A stretch of 9,476 nt of DNA, taken from CAVPRW01 sp046727435 [NCBI: bacterium]. GTDB lineage: Bacteria > Tectomicrobia > Entotheonellia > J063. The notes below the pieces were generated by a model. That model was not told the DNA's origin and did not search any database. It worked only from the letters and a program-made list of their open reading frames with translations. How positions within the stretch are numbered: the stretch's first letter is position 1; each line of letters starts with the position of its first letter. The DNA lies in contig JBKPCR010000043.1 in the NCBI GenBank assembly GCA_046727435.1, forward strand, positions 1 through 9,476, read 5' to 3'. The translations under genes were made by a program, and so were the position numbers. Positions 3,869-9,476 of the stretch are shown here, in pieces.

Positions 3869-4146
3869 GATCACAAACCTAAACTCCTTGATCTCGTTCG
3901 CCAGACCATCCGCCTCAAATTCTAGAGCACTCCTACGGAACGTAGGTATATGGACTGGATCAAGCGCTTCATCCTCTTCCACGCTAAGCGCCATCCGGCC
4001 TCTATGGGTGTGCCAGAAGTGCACGCGTTTCTCTCGCATCTGGCAGTCGAGCAACAGGTCGCCGCCTCGACCCAACGTTAAGTATTAGGCGCCATCGTGT
4101 TTCTGTACCGGGACATGCGCGATCGGGAGGTTAGCTGGCTGGGGAG
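3869..4146 (+). pseudogene. Integron-type tyrosine recombinase (IntI-like), N-terminal remnant
   Basis: One continuous frame reads HKPKLLDLVRQTIRLKF, a TAG (3923-3925), then TPTERRYMDWIKRFILFH followed by AKRHPASMGVPEVHAFLSHL, AVEQQVAASTQR, a TAA (4079-4081) and VLGAIVFLYRDM. This matches the N-terminal SAM-like core-binding domain of integron integrases, whose signatures are a YxxWIKRFI..F..KRHP block, an AF(L)xxLAVE..VAASTQNQAL block and a LFLYREV block. The stops replace what are normally Tyr and Gln codons, the latter fitting CAA to TAA. Homology fades after EVSWLG near 4140, and the catalytic domain (Arg, His-x-x-Arg and Tyr of a roughly 320-residue enzyme) is gone. It is therefore inactive, a scar of past recombination next to the grd-like cluster. 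No cassette array is visible. Confidence 0.85.
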
Positions 4147-4193: not shown

Positions 4194-5645
4194 TCAGGGC
4201 CATTGCGACTCGAGAATGAAAGACAGGCCATCGGCCATCTGGGTCATACGCCCCAGGAACAGACTGCCCTTAGCAAGGAACATGGCGCGTCGCATGGTAC
4301 CAGCTGTCATGCGGTCAAGCGCATGTCCCAAAAACGGAATTGCTGAGGCGATGTGACCTTGGGTGGGCGAAAAACCCGGCATGCCATGGGCGCTCACGAA
4401 GGGTCCAACCTCAGCCGGGATAATTTCCTTCCGGAGCGCTGCTAAACCGGCAATGACACGATAGTTCAGCAGCGGCACGTTGCCACTGCCGGCGGGCTCG
4501 GTCACCTCGGGATTATGCAGCTCTGTAGCATACTTATCGATGTCACGAAATCGCAACCCGAGCTGCTGTAAGGGTTTGGCAACGAGATGCTCGAAAATCG
4601 CCTGCTGGGATGATCCAGCGCCGACGGTATGGCGGCCAATCGCATCTAGACGTATGACTGGTGACTGTCCATCGTTTTCGCCGACGAGAATGGCTACACC
4701 CGCCAGCACATCTTCCAAGATCGGCTGATCGTGCTGAAGATGCCCCTGAAATTTCATGCCCAGCTTGGCGAGCGAGCATCCGCCGATGACCGCGACCTGC
4801 CGAAACATCCGCGAGCTGATGAGCCCCCCGGCCAAAGCCAGCGCATGGACTGGGCCACAGCAGAAGCCTTTGATATCAACGCCGGTCGCCATCGTGCACC
4901 CACACATCTCTGCCACCGCTTTCGCCAGATTACCACCACCGCGCTGGTACCGATCGCCCACCGCTTCCTCGCCACTGTTCAGAACGTACTCGATGGTCTG
5001 TGAATCGGTGCCCGTCTGGGCCAACAGGGTACGGAAGGCCATCGTAGCGGTGGCCTTGCAGACCAGATTTTCCAACAAGACGTCCGCTGCTAAAGAGCCA
5101 TCTTCGTCATGGGCCGCATGGATACAGCCAACCAGTCGCCCGTCGCGAAGGTACAGCGGCAGGATATGCCTGTCGGTGCTTAGCCTGGATTCGATGGCAG
5201 CCAGCGGTTTGCCATCGCCCATACGACTGCGGTCCGCGGCAGTGATGTGGGGATGGGTGGCCAGCAGCTCTTTGACGGTCGCGTTGAAGTGCTCGTCGAG
5301 CCACACCAGATCGAACACATCGCACATCTTCACGATCCCGTAAAATTCCTCCTCCGGCATGATCTCACCATGCGGCCCCCAACGCCGCCCCCCATCGGTC
5401 ATCTTGAACCAGGGTTGGCCATAGCTGCGGAGGTCGTCGGGGAAGATGCTCCCCAGGAACGCCTGGTTGGGGGGATACGCGGCGGCCGCTTCATGCGGGC
5501 GGAGATGCGCAGAAATCGCTGTGATCAACCCCGGATCCTTAACGAGCTCGCGCGCTGGTTTGGAACCATAGCGCACCATCCCCGGCGTATGCGCGAGAAA
5601 AAAGCGCACCCCATGTATGACCGGTGGGACAATCGTCTGGGGCAT
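4194..5645 (-). CDS. grdC: GrdC-like protein (glycine/sarcosine/betaine reductase component C, beta subunit family)
   Basis: A thiolase/FabH-like fold protein, 483 residues, near the usual size for GrdC (about 500). In the classical system GrdC with GrdD forms component C, which takes an acetyl thioester from selenoprotein A and releases acetyl phosphate. Diagnostic family segments are present: HTPGMVRYGSKP (about 19-30), YPPNQAFLG (57-65), VDIKGFCCGPVHALALAGG (256-274) with the candidate acyl-accepting Cys262/Cys263, LEDVLAGVAILVGENDG (310-326), RHTVGAGSS (338-346), NPEVTEPAG (378-386), HGMPGFSPTQGHI (420-432) and KGSLFLGR (459-466). Start: ATG 5645 with AAGGAG 7 bases upstream. It is the last gene of the three-gene cluster, 79 bases after the grdE-like gene. 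No GrdD gene follows; DNA downstream is the integrase remnant, so acetyl phosphate formation cannot be assumed. Stop is TGA. Confidence 0.88.
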   Translation of the reverse strand: MPQTIVPPVIHGVRFFLAHTPGMVRYGSKPARELVKDPGLITAISAHLRPHEAAAAYPPNQAFLGSIFPDDLRSYGQPWFKMTDGGRRWGPHGEIMPEEEFYGIVKMCDVFDLVWLDEHFNATVKELLATHPHITAADRSRMGDGKPLAAIESRLSTDRHILPLYLRDGRLVGCIHAAHDEDGSLAADVLLENLVCKATATMAFRTLLAQTGTDSQTIEYVLNSGEEAVGDRYQRGGGNLAKAVAEMCGCTMATGVDIKGFCCGPVHALALAGGLISSRMFRQVAVIGGCSLAKLGMKFQGHLQHDQPILEDVLAGVAILVGENDGQSPVIRLDAIGRHTVGAGSSQQAIFEHLVAKPLQQLGLRFRDIDKYATELHNPEVTEPAGSGNVPLLNYRVIAGLAALRKEIIPAEVGPFVSAHGMPGFSPTQGHIASAIPFLGHALDRMTAGTMRRAMFLAKGSLFLGRMTQMADGLSFILESQWP

Positions 5646-5724
5646 CTGGATGCTCCTTAAAAAAGGACGGCGCGCTGCAGACTGAGCAGGCGGCTCGCTT
5701 AGTCCCCAGCGCGCAGGGCTGAGC

Positions 5725-7014
5725 TCAAAATTCCGCGCAGCTCAGGCGATTGAAGCCGTAATGATCGTCGTAGCGGGGCGGTGGGGGCAAAGGGCCAGCG
5801 GTCGGAACCGGCTGATCGCGCAGCGGGCCGATCAGCTTCGTCTGGTGGCCGATGACGCGCTGGACGGCGGGTAGTTCGGGCACCCCGAGCGTCCGCGTTT
5901 TAAAAAAACTGGTGCTGACAATGGCATCGGCTTCGCGCAGTGGTTCGAGCATCGTGGGGGCCCCGCCTGTGGCGTCATCCTCGCTGGTCAAAAACACGGT
6001 CTTGATACCCAGCCGCTCGCACGCTTGGATAGTGCGGATGACCTCGATAAACTCGTTGCCCCCGGCATCCCAGGTGACAATCGCCCCCTGTGCTCCCAAC
6101 ATCTGGGCCAGCTTGGCCGTCTGATTTGCCATCAGTTGCTTCTCGTGCTGCGTCGTCCACTCCGTGCGCAACGCAATCACCCCCAGGAAATTCCAGTCCA
6201 CGCCGTGCTGTCGATACAGATCCAGGAGCACCGGGTTATTGGCGACGGTCCATGACATGGCCAAAGCGGTGCGATAGGGACCGGTAATCGCACCATCGAG
6301 AATTTCATTGGGATGGAACAGCCATGGCGGTGTCAGTTGCGTCAGCCCATAGGTAGTGGTGCAGAAGGTGTGCAGTGACCCAGACATCGCCTGTGGTGAG
6401 TGAATGCATTGGATATACAAGACCTTAGGAAGGCCAGGATCGACTGGGCGTAACTCAAAGACCTCGCGCTCCGGAGGGTGCAGGTCCTGCACGGCGGCTG
6501 CGAGGCGATCTGAGACGACGAGGGCCGCGTTATGGACGGCGAGGTTCTGGGCTTCATTTCCCAGCGCGGGGTCGGGTTCCACGACGACACAGGCATTGAT
6601 CAGTGAGCTCATCGGGATCAATTCGGCCCACGGCCCGGTCATATCCAGGAAGATTTCGACATAGTCCCCACCGGCCTCATGCCAATTGACCCCGGAGACT
6701 TCGGTCACCCCCATCCCAGCCAGACGATGGGTCCGCCCCTGGCCGACAGTCGTGATCGGTCGGCCGCAGATCCCCGGGTAGACGACGCCTGGTCCCTCGA
6801 CTTTGATACGCGGCTCGATGACATCGCGCACAGGCCAGATACGGACCGATTCGCCAGGCTTCGCGAGTTCGAGCTCAGCTGTGGCGATGCGAGGGTCGTG
6901 CAGGATCAGCTCGAGGATACTGTCGCGATCGATCTCCAGGCGCCCATCCTGCCACCGAGTGTGTGATCCAAAGACGACATCGTGAACCGGAAATGTGCCC
7001 ATTTCAAGACGCAT
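5725..7014 (-). CDS. grdE: GrdE-like protein (glycine/sarcosine/betaine reductase component B, alpha/beta precursor family), lacks the pyruvoyl cysteine
   Basis: A 429-residue member of the GrdE/GrdG/GrdI family. In classical systems the precursor self-cleaves at a cysteine to make two subunits, one carrying the pyruvoyl group that forms a Schiff base with the substrate amine. Family landmarks are clear: MRLEMGTFPVHDVVFG (1-16), AKPGESVRIWPVRDVIEPRIK (51-71), VGQGRTHRLAG (90-100), CVVVEP (142-147), LPKVLYIQ (195-202), NEILDGAITGPYRTA (236-250) and the C-terminal GFNRLSCAEF. As I recall the classical proteins, DGAIT is followed by an SGNC-type cleavage site; here it is GPYRTALAMSW (245-255) with no cysteine, so processing looks impossible there. 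Start: ATG 7014 with GGAG 6 bases upstream fits the family N-terminus; the GTG at 7026 is a poorer choice. It is the middle gene of the cluster. Stop is TGA. Confidence 0.85.
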   Translation of the reverse strand: MRLEMGTFPVHDVVFGSHTRWQDGRLEIDRDSILELILHDPRIATAELELAKPGESVRIWPVRDVIEPRIKVEGPGVVYPGICGRPITTVGQGRTHRLAGMGVTEVSGVNWHEAGGDYVEIFLDMTGPWAELIPMSSLINACVVVEPDPALGNEAQNLAVHNAALVVSDRLAAAVQDLHPPEREVFELRPVDPGLPKVLYIQCIHSPQAMSGSLHTFCTTTYGLTQLTPPWLFHPNEILDGAITGPYRTALAMSWTVANNPVLLDLYRQHGVDWNFLGVIALRTEWTTQHEKQLMANQTAKLAQMLGAQGAIVTWDAGGNEFIEVIRTIQACERLGIKTVFLTSEDDATGGAPTMLEPLREADAIVSTSFFKTRTLGVPELPAVQRVIGHQTKLIGPLRDQPVPTAGPLPPPPRYDDHYGFNRLSCAEF

Positions 7015-7137
7015 ACGAATCTCCACGTGCCTCCCTCGCCCTCAGAGAGCATAGGCGCCGGGTTAAGGGTAAACACCATCAGTGAGAAGCTCTTGGCCCT
7101 CTCTCCTCTCGGGAGAGGGCTGGGGTGAGGGAACAGC
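7015..7137 (-). other. grdB-grdE spacer with interspersed-type repeat
   Basis: About 120 bases separate the two genes. The spacer holds a pyrimidine/purine hairpin element at 7097-7131, then the ribosome site of the grdE-like gene. No promoter stands out. Confidence 0.5.
7097..7131. repeat. Interspersed palindromic element (CCCTCTC...GAGAGGG-CTGGGGTGAGGG type)
   Basis: CCCTCTC (7097-7103) pairs with GAGAGGG (7113-7119) across a 9-base loop, followed by a CTGGGGTGAGGG tail. This composition is typical of short intergenic repeats scattered in many bacterial genomes. It lies inside the presumed grd-like transcript, where its hairpin could reduce downstream expression or stabilise the upstream RNA. 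A diverged pair of similar blocks occurs at 8697-8772. Confidence 0.65.
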
Positions 7138-8466
7138 CTACCCGTTGAGCAACTCCACCGGATCGAACAGTGTCGGCCCATCGACAGGTGTCTGCAATGC
7201 CTTCAAGGCCGTGCGGACGATGCGCAGTCCATAGGTATAATCTTTCTCGGGGCCAAGGTCTGGATCCCCGCAGACATGCTCGATCCGACTGCCCCTTACG
7301 ACACGATTCGCCCCCGTCGTCATGGCGAATTCATAGATCGCCGAAATCTGCGCAGTGGGAATGCCTACACGCTCGATCTCTTTGGTCATCGTTGCACCGC
7401 AACGATTGCAGGTGCCTCAGGTCGCCACCAGGAGACAGCCGGCAACCCTGGCCTCCTGGAGCTCGCGGCCGACGTCAGCCCCCATGCGACGGGCCTGTGC
7501 CACCGGTGTGCTAACCCCCGGTAGGGCATAGATATAGGGATAGATGCCGCCGATCTCGCCTTTGCGCTCCAGGTCACGCATGAAGCTCAGCGGCAGGATA
7601 TAATTGGGGTTTTTGTTGACGATATGATTGAAATAGCCAGCGTGATAGGCTTCCCATTCCCTTCCACTCAGACTTTCGAGTTCTGATACATCATGGCGGA
7701 AGTAACGTGTCGCATTGGCGGAGACCTGCTTATCGGGGTTCCCCTTGCGGACAAGTCCGCCGGTGGTGACGAGGGCGATGGTGGCTTTGGCGAGATCGGC
7801 AATGGGCAACGCGGGCGAGACGCGTTCGGGGACCAGAATCGGCACCTCGGTGGTAAATGACTGGCCCAACAATTTGGCTTTGAGCATATCCAACGCACGG
7901 CGGTATCCTGGCGCCGTGCGGGTATACATAGAGCGCACGCCACGGGGCAGAAAGCCCTCGACTTCAGCCGGTCCGAGCGGCTCTTTACGAGCCAATTTGA
8001 TGGCCAGGCGAGCCATCGCCGCGAGAGCGGCCTGCATCTCCACCGGACTGGCGCCGGTGGGAACGATCAGAATGTCCGGTCTGCCGCTCTCGACTCCAGG
8101 GTTATCCGGATGCATCCCCGTCAATGCCGGGATGCCGATTCCCTGTGCCGCCTTGCAAGCCTCGGCACAGGCTAATCCATAACGCCCGGACTCGAAGGCC
8201 GGTCCAGCGATCACCATGTCCGGCTTGAGGTCTTGCAGTATACGGATGATCGCGGCCAGGGCATTGTCACGTGCATCGTTGAGGAAATTGTCGCCGCAGA
8301 TGAGCGTGGCCACCACGGTGCCCTCATCCTTGAGGATCTGTTGGAGGGGCCGCCCAGAGCCAACCGGACCTTGTTGCACACGGGGAGGGATGTTCGCCAC
8401 TTCCTCTCCGCCAATTCCCGCAAAGAATTGGTTCAGATAATGAACCACTCGCAACGGGGTTTCCAT
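7138..8466 (-). CDS. grdB: GrdB-like selenoprotein (glycine/sarcosine/betaine reductase component B, gamma subunit family), Sec at residue 350
   Basis: A 442-residue protein when the in-frame TGA at 7417-7419 is read as selenocysteine; this matches the family length of about 436. In classical Grd systems this subunit works with the GrdE products in substrate reduction and hands a carboxymethyl group to selenoprotein A. N-terminal hallmark: RVVHYLNQFFAGIGGEE (6-22). Others: ICGDNFLND (56-64), AGPAFESGRYG (86-96), HPDNPGVESGR (119-129). The Sec site reads LLVAT-U-GTCNRCGATMTKEIER, the family's U-G-T-C-x-R-C motif, and the frame continues uninterrupted for 92 residues to TAG at 7138. Start: ATG 8466 with GGGAGG 6 bases upstream. 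It is the first gene of the cluster. Automated callers are likely to truncate it at 7417 and mis-start the rest at 7389. Real substrate is unknown because the partners are atypical. Confidence 0.93.
7388..7406 (-). promoter_or_regulatory. Candidate bacterial SECIS hairpin of the grdB-like gene
   Basis: On the coding (minus) strand ATCGTTGC pairs perfectly with GCAACGAT around a GGT loop. The first loop G is about 18 bases after the UGA, within the 16-37 base window usual for bacterial SECIS elements, with G in the first loop positions as that model requires. An alternative 5-bp stem GCACC/GGTGC can be drawn nearer the UGA. The hairpin falls within codons for NRCGATM, and the synonymous codon choices make the palindrome exact. 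SelB binding is inferred. Confidence 0.75.
7417..7419 (-). other. UGA selenocysteine codon of the grdB-like gene
   Basis: Plus-strand tca at 7417-7419 reads TGA in the grdB-like frame, immediately before the conserved GTCNRCG. The sequence on both sides matches one family, which rules out a chance stop. The grdE- and grdC-like genes in the same cluster end in ordinary TGA stops, neither followed by family-like sequence. Confidence 0.93.
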
Positions 8467-8696
8467 AGCCGTCCTCCCATACTCTCATGTGCATCTGACG
8501 ACCTGAATGGTCATCGGGCCACGGCGATGATCTGCAACGCCATGCAGCTGTGAACCTAGCCCTTATCTGTAATCATGCGCTCGGAGAGTTGATGGCTAAG
8601 CGTTGATCTAAGTACCATGCGCCGCGATTTCACGCCCTCCCGAACCCCTCACAAGGGTAGGTCTTTCTCAGATACGACACTGATCCTGGTGCCGTG

Positions 8697-8772
8697 CTCC
8701 CTCTTTCAGAGGGAGAGGGGACGAAAAACCTACCATAGAAAACTCCCAAATCCTCTCCCGTCACGGGGAGGG
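8697..8772. repeat. Two purine/pyrimidine hairpin blocks related to the 7097 element
   Basis: CTCCCTCT-TTC-AGAGGGAG (8697-8715) is a perfect 8-bp hairpin. CCTCTCCCG-TCA-CGGGGAGGG (8752-8772) is a second, imperfect one followed by TTGGATAGGG. The wording resembles the 7097-7131 element, suggesting decayed copies of the same interspersed repeat family. Confidence 0.5.
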
Positions 8773-8921: not shown

Positions 8922-9021
8922 ATGCTATAACATCGGGCAAGAGTTCGGAGTATCCTGATCCAAGGACGGGGGATGGACGCGAGCGACGAAGGATTTGCGC
9001 ATGCCACGTGAGGGGACTTCG

Positions 9022-9476
9022 ATGGTTGATTACGGCGTATATCAGCATCTCATCGTTGACAAGCAAGATGGCATCGCACGCATCACGATGAACCGACCGG
9101 AGGTGTATAATGCCACGAATGGCCGATTGCACTACGAGCTTGGGCGCATCTGGCTGGATATCGGTGCGGATGCTGACGTCCGTGTGGCGGTCATCACAGG
9201 TGCGGGGAAAGCCTTCTCCGCTGGCGGGGATCTGGACCTGATTGAGGGCTTTCTTGGGGATGCCGCGGCGATCGCAAACACGATGAAGGAGGCCGGCGAC
9301 ATCGTCTACAACATTACGAATCTGGACAAGCCGGTGATCTCAGCCATCAACGGCATCGCCGTGGGCGCCGGGTTGGCGGTGGCTCTGATGGCGGACATCT
9401 CGATTGCTTCAGAGGAAGCGCGCTTCACTGATGGCCATATCCGGTTGGGAGTGGGAGCTGGCGATCACTCGGTCAT
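9022..9476 (+). CDS. Crotonase-family (enoyl-CoA hydratase/isomerase-like) protein, 3' end off window
   Basis: The first 151 residues of a crotonase-fold acyl-CoA enzyme. Seen: GIARITMNRPEVYNA (17-31), the first oxyanion-hole loop KAFSAGGDLD (63-72), LDKPVISAINGIAVGAGL (101-118) with the second oxyanion-hole loop, and ADISIASEEARFTDGHIRLGVGAGDH (124-149). Aligned from memory on rat enoyl-CoA hydratase, the two catalytic glutamates (144 and 164) correspond to Ala119 and His139, so a simple hydratase is doubtful; isomerase, dehalogenase, hydrolase or other crotonase chemistry is possible. Start: ATG 9022 has AGGGG 6 bases upstream; the in-frame ATG at 9001 also has a possible site (AAGGA) and would add 7 residues. 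It is divergent from the grd-like cluster across a 550-base gap, so a metabolic link is only a suggestion. The family is typically 260-290 residues, so roughly half is present. Confidence 0.88.
   Translation, partial: MVDYGVYQHLIVDKQDGIARITMNRPEVYNATNGRLHYELGRIWLDIGADADVRVAVITGAGKAFSAGGDLDLIEGFLGDAAAIANTMKEAGDIVYNITNLDKPVISAINGIAVGAGLAVALMADISIASEEARFTDGHIRLGVGAGDHSV

Follow-up and report, generated by a model that had tools for sequence, protein, structure and literature searches.

We analyzed a 9,476-nucleotide stretch of DNA (contig JBKPCR010000043.1 of assembly GCA_046727435.1, a member of the Tectomicrobia; hereafter the window) that carries a cluster of three genes related to those for selenocysteine (Sec)-dependent glycine reductase (Grd). 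As a preliminary description of this DNA had proposed, grdB-, grdE- and grdC-like genes follow one another in that order as three intact genes of the minus strand (positions 4194-8466), and a purine-rich stretch resembling a ribosome site, as judged by eye, precedes each start (Table 1). The same description placed neither GrdA nor GrdD in the cluster, in agreement with a tblastn search of the window that returned nothing above chance for either protein (best E values of 0.46 and 0.21, respectively). Of the flanks that it named, the integrase scar on one side is real, and the long divergent gap on the other measures ~530 bp between grdB and a divergent enoyl-CoA (coenzyme A) hydratase gene. 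There is no evidence for membership of the latter gene in the Grd system.

Table 1. Features of the Grd-like cluster and of its flanks in the window.
Feature	Position	Strand	Remarks
grdB-like selenoprotein gene (substrate-specific protein B, Sec subunit)	7138..8466	-	442 residues, Sec350; motif UGTCNRC (UxxCxxC); true stop at 7138-7140
In-frame UGA (Sec) codon of grdB	7417..7419	-	TGA read as Sec
Bacterial Sec insertion sequence (SECIS) directly after the grdB UGA	7379..7416	-	Rfam RF01990 (SECIS_4); stem CGUUGC/GCAACG, loop GGU
grdE/G/I-like gene (substrate-specific protein B, other subunit)	5725..7014	-	GPYRTALAMSWT at the place of the pyruvoyl motif
grdC gene, GrdD-less type	4194..5645	-	483 residues; fold predicted to be of the thiolase/KAS III type; Cys262 occupies the nucleophile site
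Truncated tyrosine recombinase (integrase), N-terminal SAM-like domain	3926..4081	+	PF13495, E = 5.9e-16, at 3926-4078; stop at 4079-4081
Divergent enoyl-CoA hydratase/isomerase family gene	8995..9474	+	PF00378, 106 bits, E = 2.4e-30; runs off the window

The three proteins matched the Pfam families GRDB (397 bits), Gly_reductase (270 bits) and DUF5940 (178 bits), respectively. Protein B scored 444 bits against TIGR01918, the Grd/Prd selenoprotein B subfamily (cut-off 65), and protein C scored 629 bits against the GrdC equivalog NF040746 (cut-off 450), while proteins B and E fell below the cut-offs of all NCBIfam substrate-specific models discussed at the end of this text. The start of grdE was placed at the ATG at 7014 by homology; a longer reading frame begins with a GTG at 7026. 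A sequence search of the PDB with proteins B and E gave no match up to an E value of 1, and 183 pattern matches in viral contigs included no relative.

We read the UGA of grdB as Sec because a curated SECIS model, homology and the conserved position point the same way. The SECIS_4 match scored 44.7 bits (Rfam gathering score 38). The motif was located in 104 distinct homologue stretches (four pieces lacked it), and each of them has TGA there. The six base pairs of the SECIS stem can form at the corresponding site in 98 of these 104 stretches. When 45 bases are folded by simple energy minimization, the stem appears in 90 of the 104; in the window another hairpin is preferred instead. All 13 of the closest genomes (G001-G013) carry a tRNA-Sec gene above the cut-off (at least 56 bits), as do 5 of 14 genomes in a control set. 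Two Bacillaceae genomes (G032 and G037) were found to have two and three such copies, respectively, one of which lies ~0.4-2 kb from the grd cluster.

The preliminary description had raised the possibility of a conserved B-E-C trio that works without GrdA, and here relatives of the window tell otherwise. Among 41 genomes or records that were picked from related loci (mostly non-classical, plus a few classical controls), 36 have GrdA (35 above the cut-off and one as a fragment below it). Of the 13 genomes whose GrdB is most similar, 10 have GrdA, and those without a match are all metagenome-assembled genomes (MAGs). The genes stand in one row as B-E-C-A in a Chloroflexota MAG (L009) and in two Tectomicrobia genomes assembled to chromosome scale (L130 and L152). 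The two Tectomicrobia loci are 66-67% (B), 77-78% (E) and 68% (C) identical to the window, and grdA directly follows grdC in two further Tectomicrobia genomes (L151 and L153). Compared with these nearest relatives, only the window lacks grdA in place, and the truncated tyrosine recombinase sits behind its grdC where they have grdA. These systems normally include GrdA, and the grdA of the window is probably missing from its place through rearrangement. A three-gene system without GrdA was accordingly abandoned as a lineage trait, and the tblastn search ruled out a GrdA remnant downstream of the window grdC.

Separation of the genes is also seen in a Dehalococcoidia genome (G007), where a window-type B-E pair (L013), grdA and grdC all lie apart on a 2.5-Mb contig; grdA and grdC are ~300 kb from each other, each adjoining another B-E pair. 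This arrangement bears on whether the window cluster is a relic, in which an integrase event removed grdA and left the remaining genes unused. The truncated integrase at the place of the relatives' grdA would fit such a history, as would an in-frame TGA in a nearby transaldolase/glucose-6-phosphate isomerase gene. We nevertheless regard decay as very unlikely, given that B, E and C are full-length, the SECIS and Cys262 of GrdC are kept, identity to the Tectomicrobia copies stands at 66-78%, and in G007 the window-type pair is likewise apart from grdA and grdC.

GrdD behaves differently. The GrdD profile (NF040747) was matched above the cut-off in 8 of the 41 genomes or records, a proportion that reflects how the set was picked and is not a population rate; all eight have classical loci and are GrdC-positive. 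The best match in the other genomes was partial and PlsX-like, at 38 bits. GrdC exceeded its cut-off in 35 of the 41, and 27 of those 35 are without GrdD. It was further found above the cut-off in 11 of 294 genomes of the class of G007 and in 4 of 5 genomes searched of the phylum of a second genome (G012); ten additional GrdC-positive genomes from these two groups, searched with the GrdD profile, yielded none. Altogether, GrdD was not found in 37 of 45 GrdC-positive related genomes or records (27/35 plus 10/10). A tool-drawn sample of one Clostridia-type phylum had GrdC above the cut-off in 84 of 299 genomes, and 79 of the 80 that were tested have GrdD (75 above the cut-off, and 4 as pieces beside grdC at contig ends). 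The remaining one of the 80 (G356, locus L165) has no GrdD and a divergent, short GrdC adjoining GrdA, perhaps a second, independent loss of GrdD. The preliminary description had held that GrdA and GrdD either lie elsewhere or that the cluster does something else: the former fits GrdA, which is usual in relatives, and the latter gains from GrdD, which was not found genome-wide in 37/37 GrdC-positive genomes of the lineage of the window GrdC. Within the lineage searched, GrdD is truly absent, and this makes the system a variant of the Grd kind.

The same division runs through GrdC itself. In a tree of 69 GrdC proteins, presence and absence of GrdD require a single change: one branch, with support of 100 in the Shimodaira-Hasegawa approximate likelihood ratio test (SH-aLRT), has the 40 rows with GrdD on one side and the 29 GrdD-less rows on the other. 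The window, labelled in this tree by its own locus only, falls on the GrdD-less side, grouped with a Tectomicrobia sequence; the frameshifted L134 was left out. Addition of six rows, including that of G356, gave a tree that needs two changes and from which the extra GrdC rows of L156 and L157 are absent. All were quick trees without bootstrap, that of GrdB under a simpler model. GrdC also differs in length, measuring 463-496 residues without GrdD compared to 506-520 with GrdD, except that seven of the latter are longer (six of them above 800). Six loci with GrdD (L032, L039, L051, L076, L102 and L103) have GrdC frames of 838-879 residues, which are apparent GrdC-GrdD fusions.

These findings make it very improbable that the window belongs to an ordinary Grd system whose grdA and grdD lie elsewhere in the source genome and whose products are acetyl phosphate and ATP. 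Dispersal of this kind has parallels: the sarcosine reductase B genes of P. acidaminophilum are likewise without A, C and D within the 25 kb shown, and excerpts of one report have several B modules feeding one common reductase system (PMC10838667). The window GrdC nonetheless lies on the GrdD-less side of the SH-aLRT 100 branch, and GrdD was not found in its nearest relatives, the four Tectomicrobia genomes.

The predicted GrdC model (mean predicted local distance difference test score of 91; predicted template modelling score of 0.93) has the fold of thiolases and of 3-ketoacyl-acyl carrier protein (ACP) synthase III (KAS III), with a VIA Z score of 22.8 to PqsBC and OleA; FabH was listed as well. 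No Grd-named protein was among the matches listed by VIA-align and Foldseek, which says nothing on absence. Cys262 is invariant in the 69 GrdC rows and aligned with the nucleophilic cysteine of FabH, so that GrdC, by predicted fold and predicted nucleophile, would be a member of the KAS III/thiolase superfamily.

We next consider the fate of the acetyl group. Acetate kinase was above the cut-off in all 19 GrdD-positive genomes compared to 8 of 31 GrdD-less genomes (Fisher p = 1e-7, a figure that is too strong owing to kinship). In this count G013 was entered as GrdD-less, though its GrdC is present only in pieces. The acetate kinase profile found nothing in three GrdD-less genomes with chromosome-scale contigs (G007, G012 and G041). 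Matches to Pta/PTB of more than 100 bits, read from the score table, were present in 17/19 GrdD-positive and 5/31 GrdD-less genomes; at the low cut-off the tally was 25/50, PlsX-like matches included. Most of the searched GrdD-less genomes are without an evident route from acetyl phosphate to ATP, which supports, without proving, an acceptor other than phosphate.

Two further explanations turn on these counts. GrdC might still yield acetyl phosphate, the role of GrdD being filled by housekeeping PlsX or by GrdC alone. GrdD belongs to PF02504, the same Pfam family as PlsX, and shows weak similarity to PlsX models, and the sole GrdD-like matches in GrdD-less genomes are weak, partial and PlsX-looking. 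Acetate kinase is missing in 23 of the 31 GrdD-less genomes, however, and acetyl phosphate would therefore be without its usual outlet there, which leads us to view this explanation as unlikely. Alternatively, GrdC might hydrolyze its intermediate to free acetate, or transfer its acetyl group to some unknown acceptor, either a protein or a small molecule, in the service of detoxification or nitrogen release rather than energy. The absence of GrdD and the frequent absence of AckA and Pta would agree with this, as would the several GrdE paralogues that most of the closest genomes hold beside at most one GrdA and one GrdC: GrdE matches number 1-8 per genome in the 13, a few contig-end fragments included, against one GrdA in 10 genomes and never more than one full GrdC. 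KAS III/thiolase-type proteins most often use CoA or ACP thiols, and for this reason we judge hydrolysis or another acceptor to be improbable.

The substrate was approached through proteins E and B. The pyruvoyl motif GNCVxxCDK is present in 47 of 94 aligned E proteins; the window E has GPYRTALAMSWT instead and thus lacks this mark of glycine and sarcosine reductases. The pattern GPYR[TS]xFA[TM]SWT recurs at seven related loci (L006, L008, L009, L013, L014, L127 and L132), and the window has Leu for Phe. According to excerpts of PMC10838667, the E cysteine pair of glycine and sarcosine reductases yields a pyruvoyl group for a Schiff base, and FarE and GrdI are without this pair. Its lack in the window GrdE makes an amine substrate bound through a Schiff base unlikely. 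The window B fits neither the GrdB nor the GrdF motif given in the part of PMC9751293 used here; 35 of 103 B proteins fit the GrdB motif and 2 of 103 the GrdF motif, the latter applied minus its last element, and the strict patterns also miss some proteins closely related to classical GrdB. Because the window E has no pyruvoyl pair and the window B fails both motifs, glycine or sarcosine would be an unlikely substrate as judged by sequence; betaine-like or other leaving groups would be candidates. In the GrdB tree, the window B is sister to a Tectomicrobia copy (SH-aLRT 100), outside the branch with annotated GrdH. Four GrdD-less loci (L038, L043, L061 and L080) do carry the pyruvoyl motif, and the lack of GrdD is therefore independent of substrate type.

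Ten proteins that flank the related loci L130, L152, L006, L013 and L009 were scanned; they differ by locus and gave no hint of a substrate, being, among others, of the anthranilate synthase, glutamine amidotransferase, M48 peptidase, HAD, DnaE, GltX and GMC oxidoreductase types. A Chloroflexota MAG (G024, behind L049) has 18 GrdE-family matches, some of them partial, with GrdA not matched and GrdC matched only in part.

Taken together, these findings suggest that the window trio combines a substrate module (B and E) with an acyl-accepting GrdC of a GrdD-less Grd branch, and that this GrdC itself is the acyl donor, with CoA as the most likely acceptor; we put the probability of this reading at roughly 0.5. 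By analogy with the known Grd mechanism, the B-E module would bind a small R-CH2-COO- compound without a pyruvoyl Schiff base, and Sec350 would attack the CH2 and free the leaving group. The Sec of GrdA, whose gene probably lies at another site in the genome, would next receive the carboxymethyl group, and reduction on GrdA would give an acetyl group to be taken up by Cys262 of GrdC. In a last step the KAS III/thiolase-like GrdC, without GrdD, would transfer the acetyl group to a thiol, of which CoA is the most likely, rather than to phosphate. Acyl transfer to CoA instead of phosphate had been suggested in the preliminary description. Its negative half is reasonable, since GrdD is absent, acetate kinase is often absent and GrdE is not a classical pyruvoyl proprotein; CoA itself is what we infer.

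Several observations weigh against this reading, in addition to the standing of CoA as acceptor. Acetate kinase is, after all, present in 8 of the 31 GrdD-less genomes and a strong Pta/PTB match in 5, and four GrdD-less genomes (three Bacillaceae and G029) have both. A Desulfobacterales chromosome (G018, behind L035) has GrdA, a GrdB locus and one GrdE match, with neither GrdC nor GrdD matched; the reading does not explain this genome, in which GrdC itself may be replaceable. The GrdC of the GrdD-less G356 joined the GrdD side of the enlarged tree through a long branch that the program flagged as unsafe, and is without the residues typical of GrdD-less rows. Other KAS active-site residues could not be mapped onto GrdC with confidence, and a profile alignment with three FabH sequences put either Glu375 or residue 377 at the KAS histidine. 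All 40 rows with GrdD have Gln as residue 377, and the 29 GrdD-less rows divide into 22 with His and 7 with Gln; those seven rows led us to drop His377 as a strict marker of GrdD-less GrdC, and its role as the KAS catalytic histidine was dropped on account of the unsure register. Finally, the presence data are phylogenetically clustered, and many of the genomes are MAGs.

The GrdD-less branch comprises Chloroflexota, Tectomicrobia, Rokubacteria, several deltaproteobacterial groups, Bacillaceae and Desulfofundulus. Tentatively, and with somewhat less than even confidence, we propose that this whole branch uncoupled Sec-dependent reductive cleavage from acetyl-phosphate formation. The KAS III-like GrdC alone would deliver acetyl-CoA and, together with a single GrdA, would serve as many as eight B-E modules that differ in substrate specificity; some of the organisms concerned are not known to ferment amino acids. 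Glycine reductase is described, in the part of PMC13188914 drawn on here, as a soluble ATP route through acetyl phosphate. If true, the existence of so large a branch without GrdD would imply that this selenium chemistry also runs without acetyl-phosphate coupling, in marine, sponge-type and soil lineages. The GrdB/GrdE paralogues of SAR202-like Chloroflexota and of Tectomicrobia, so far unexplained, would receive an assignment that can be tested, and such systems could be spotted by a simple genomic rule, short GrdC plus no GrdD. Grd in Dehalococcoidia as such has already been reported (PMC9751293), in a paper whose main text does not contain the terms 'GrdC' and 'GrdD'. The titles and abstract beginnings returned by a literature search included none on Grd without GrdD; subscription journals were mostly uncovered, and absence from print is not claimed.

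Elsewhere in the window, a minus-strand frame at 2-1546 encodes a bifunctional transaldolase/glucose-6-phosphate isomerase with one in-frame TGA near 1247-1249, immediately behind VYD; Sec is less likely here than a nonsense mutation or an error in sequencing. A DUF1931 protein (PF09123, 148 bits) lies at 1716-2216 on the minus strand. A further integrase-like stretch was seen by eye beyond the stop of the truncated recombinase, where Pfam gave no match. C+T-rich, partly palindromic intergenic stretches at ~7076-7137 and 8690-8770 look similar by eye; a repeat search listed no family of them.

Comparison with known systems sets the window apart from each. Like the clostridial glycine reductase GrdABCDE, it has a Sec protein B with UxxCxxC, a B subunit pair and GrdC, and its relatives have the Sec protein GrdA; in contrast to that system, its searched lineage is without GrdD, its GrdC has no extra length, its GrdE has no pyruvoyl cysteine pair, and its protein B scores far under the glycine GrdB equivalog cut-off (392 vs 602 bits). 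Betaine reductase GrdHI resembles it in a GrdI-type E that is likewise without the pyruvoyl motif (SGSFMPCSSK stands there, and PMC10838667 also states the lack), whereas the window B lies outside the GrdH branch and below its cut-off (400 vs 775 bits), and the loop in E is another one. The fluoroacetate reductase FarEB of Synergistota, according to the same excerpts, has an E without pyruvoyl cysteines and is a B-E module that feeds a shared A/C system. The window E, however, scores 115 bits against a FarE cut-off of 675, and UxxCxxC is kept in the window B, whereas farB is reported there to be without CxxC. Sarcosine reductase GrdFG supplies the top-scoring substrate-specific models for both B (442 bits) and E (GrdG, 227 bits), yet these scores are far under the cut-offs of 800 and 780, the GrdF motif is not matched and the pyruvoyl motif is missing. 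Lastly, the thiolase-like enzymes KAS III (FabH), OleA and PqsBC share with GrdC the predicted fold and nucleophilic cysteine site, at 10-18% identity in the listed structure alignments, and differ from it in that GrdC belongs to a Grd system.

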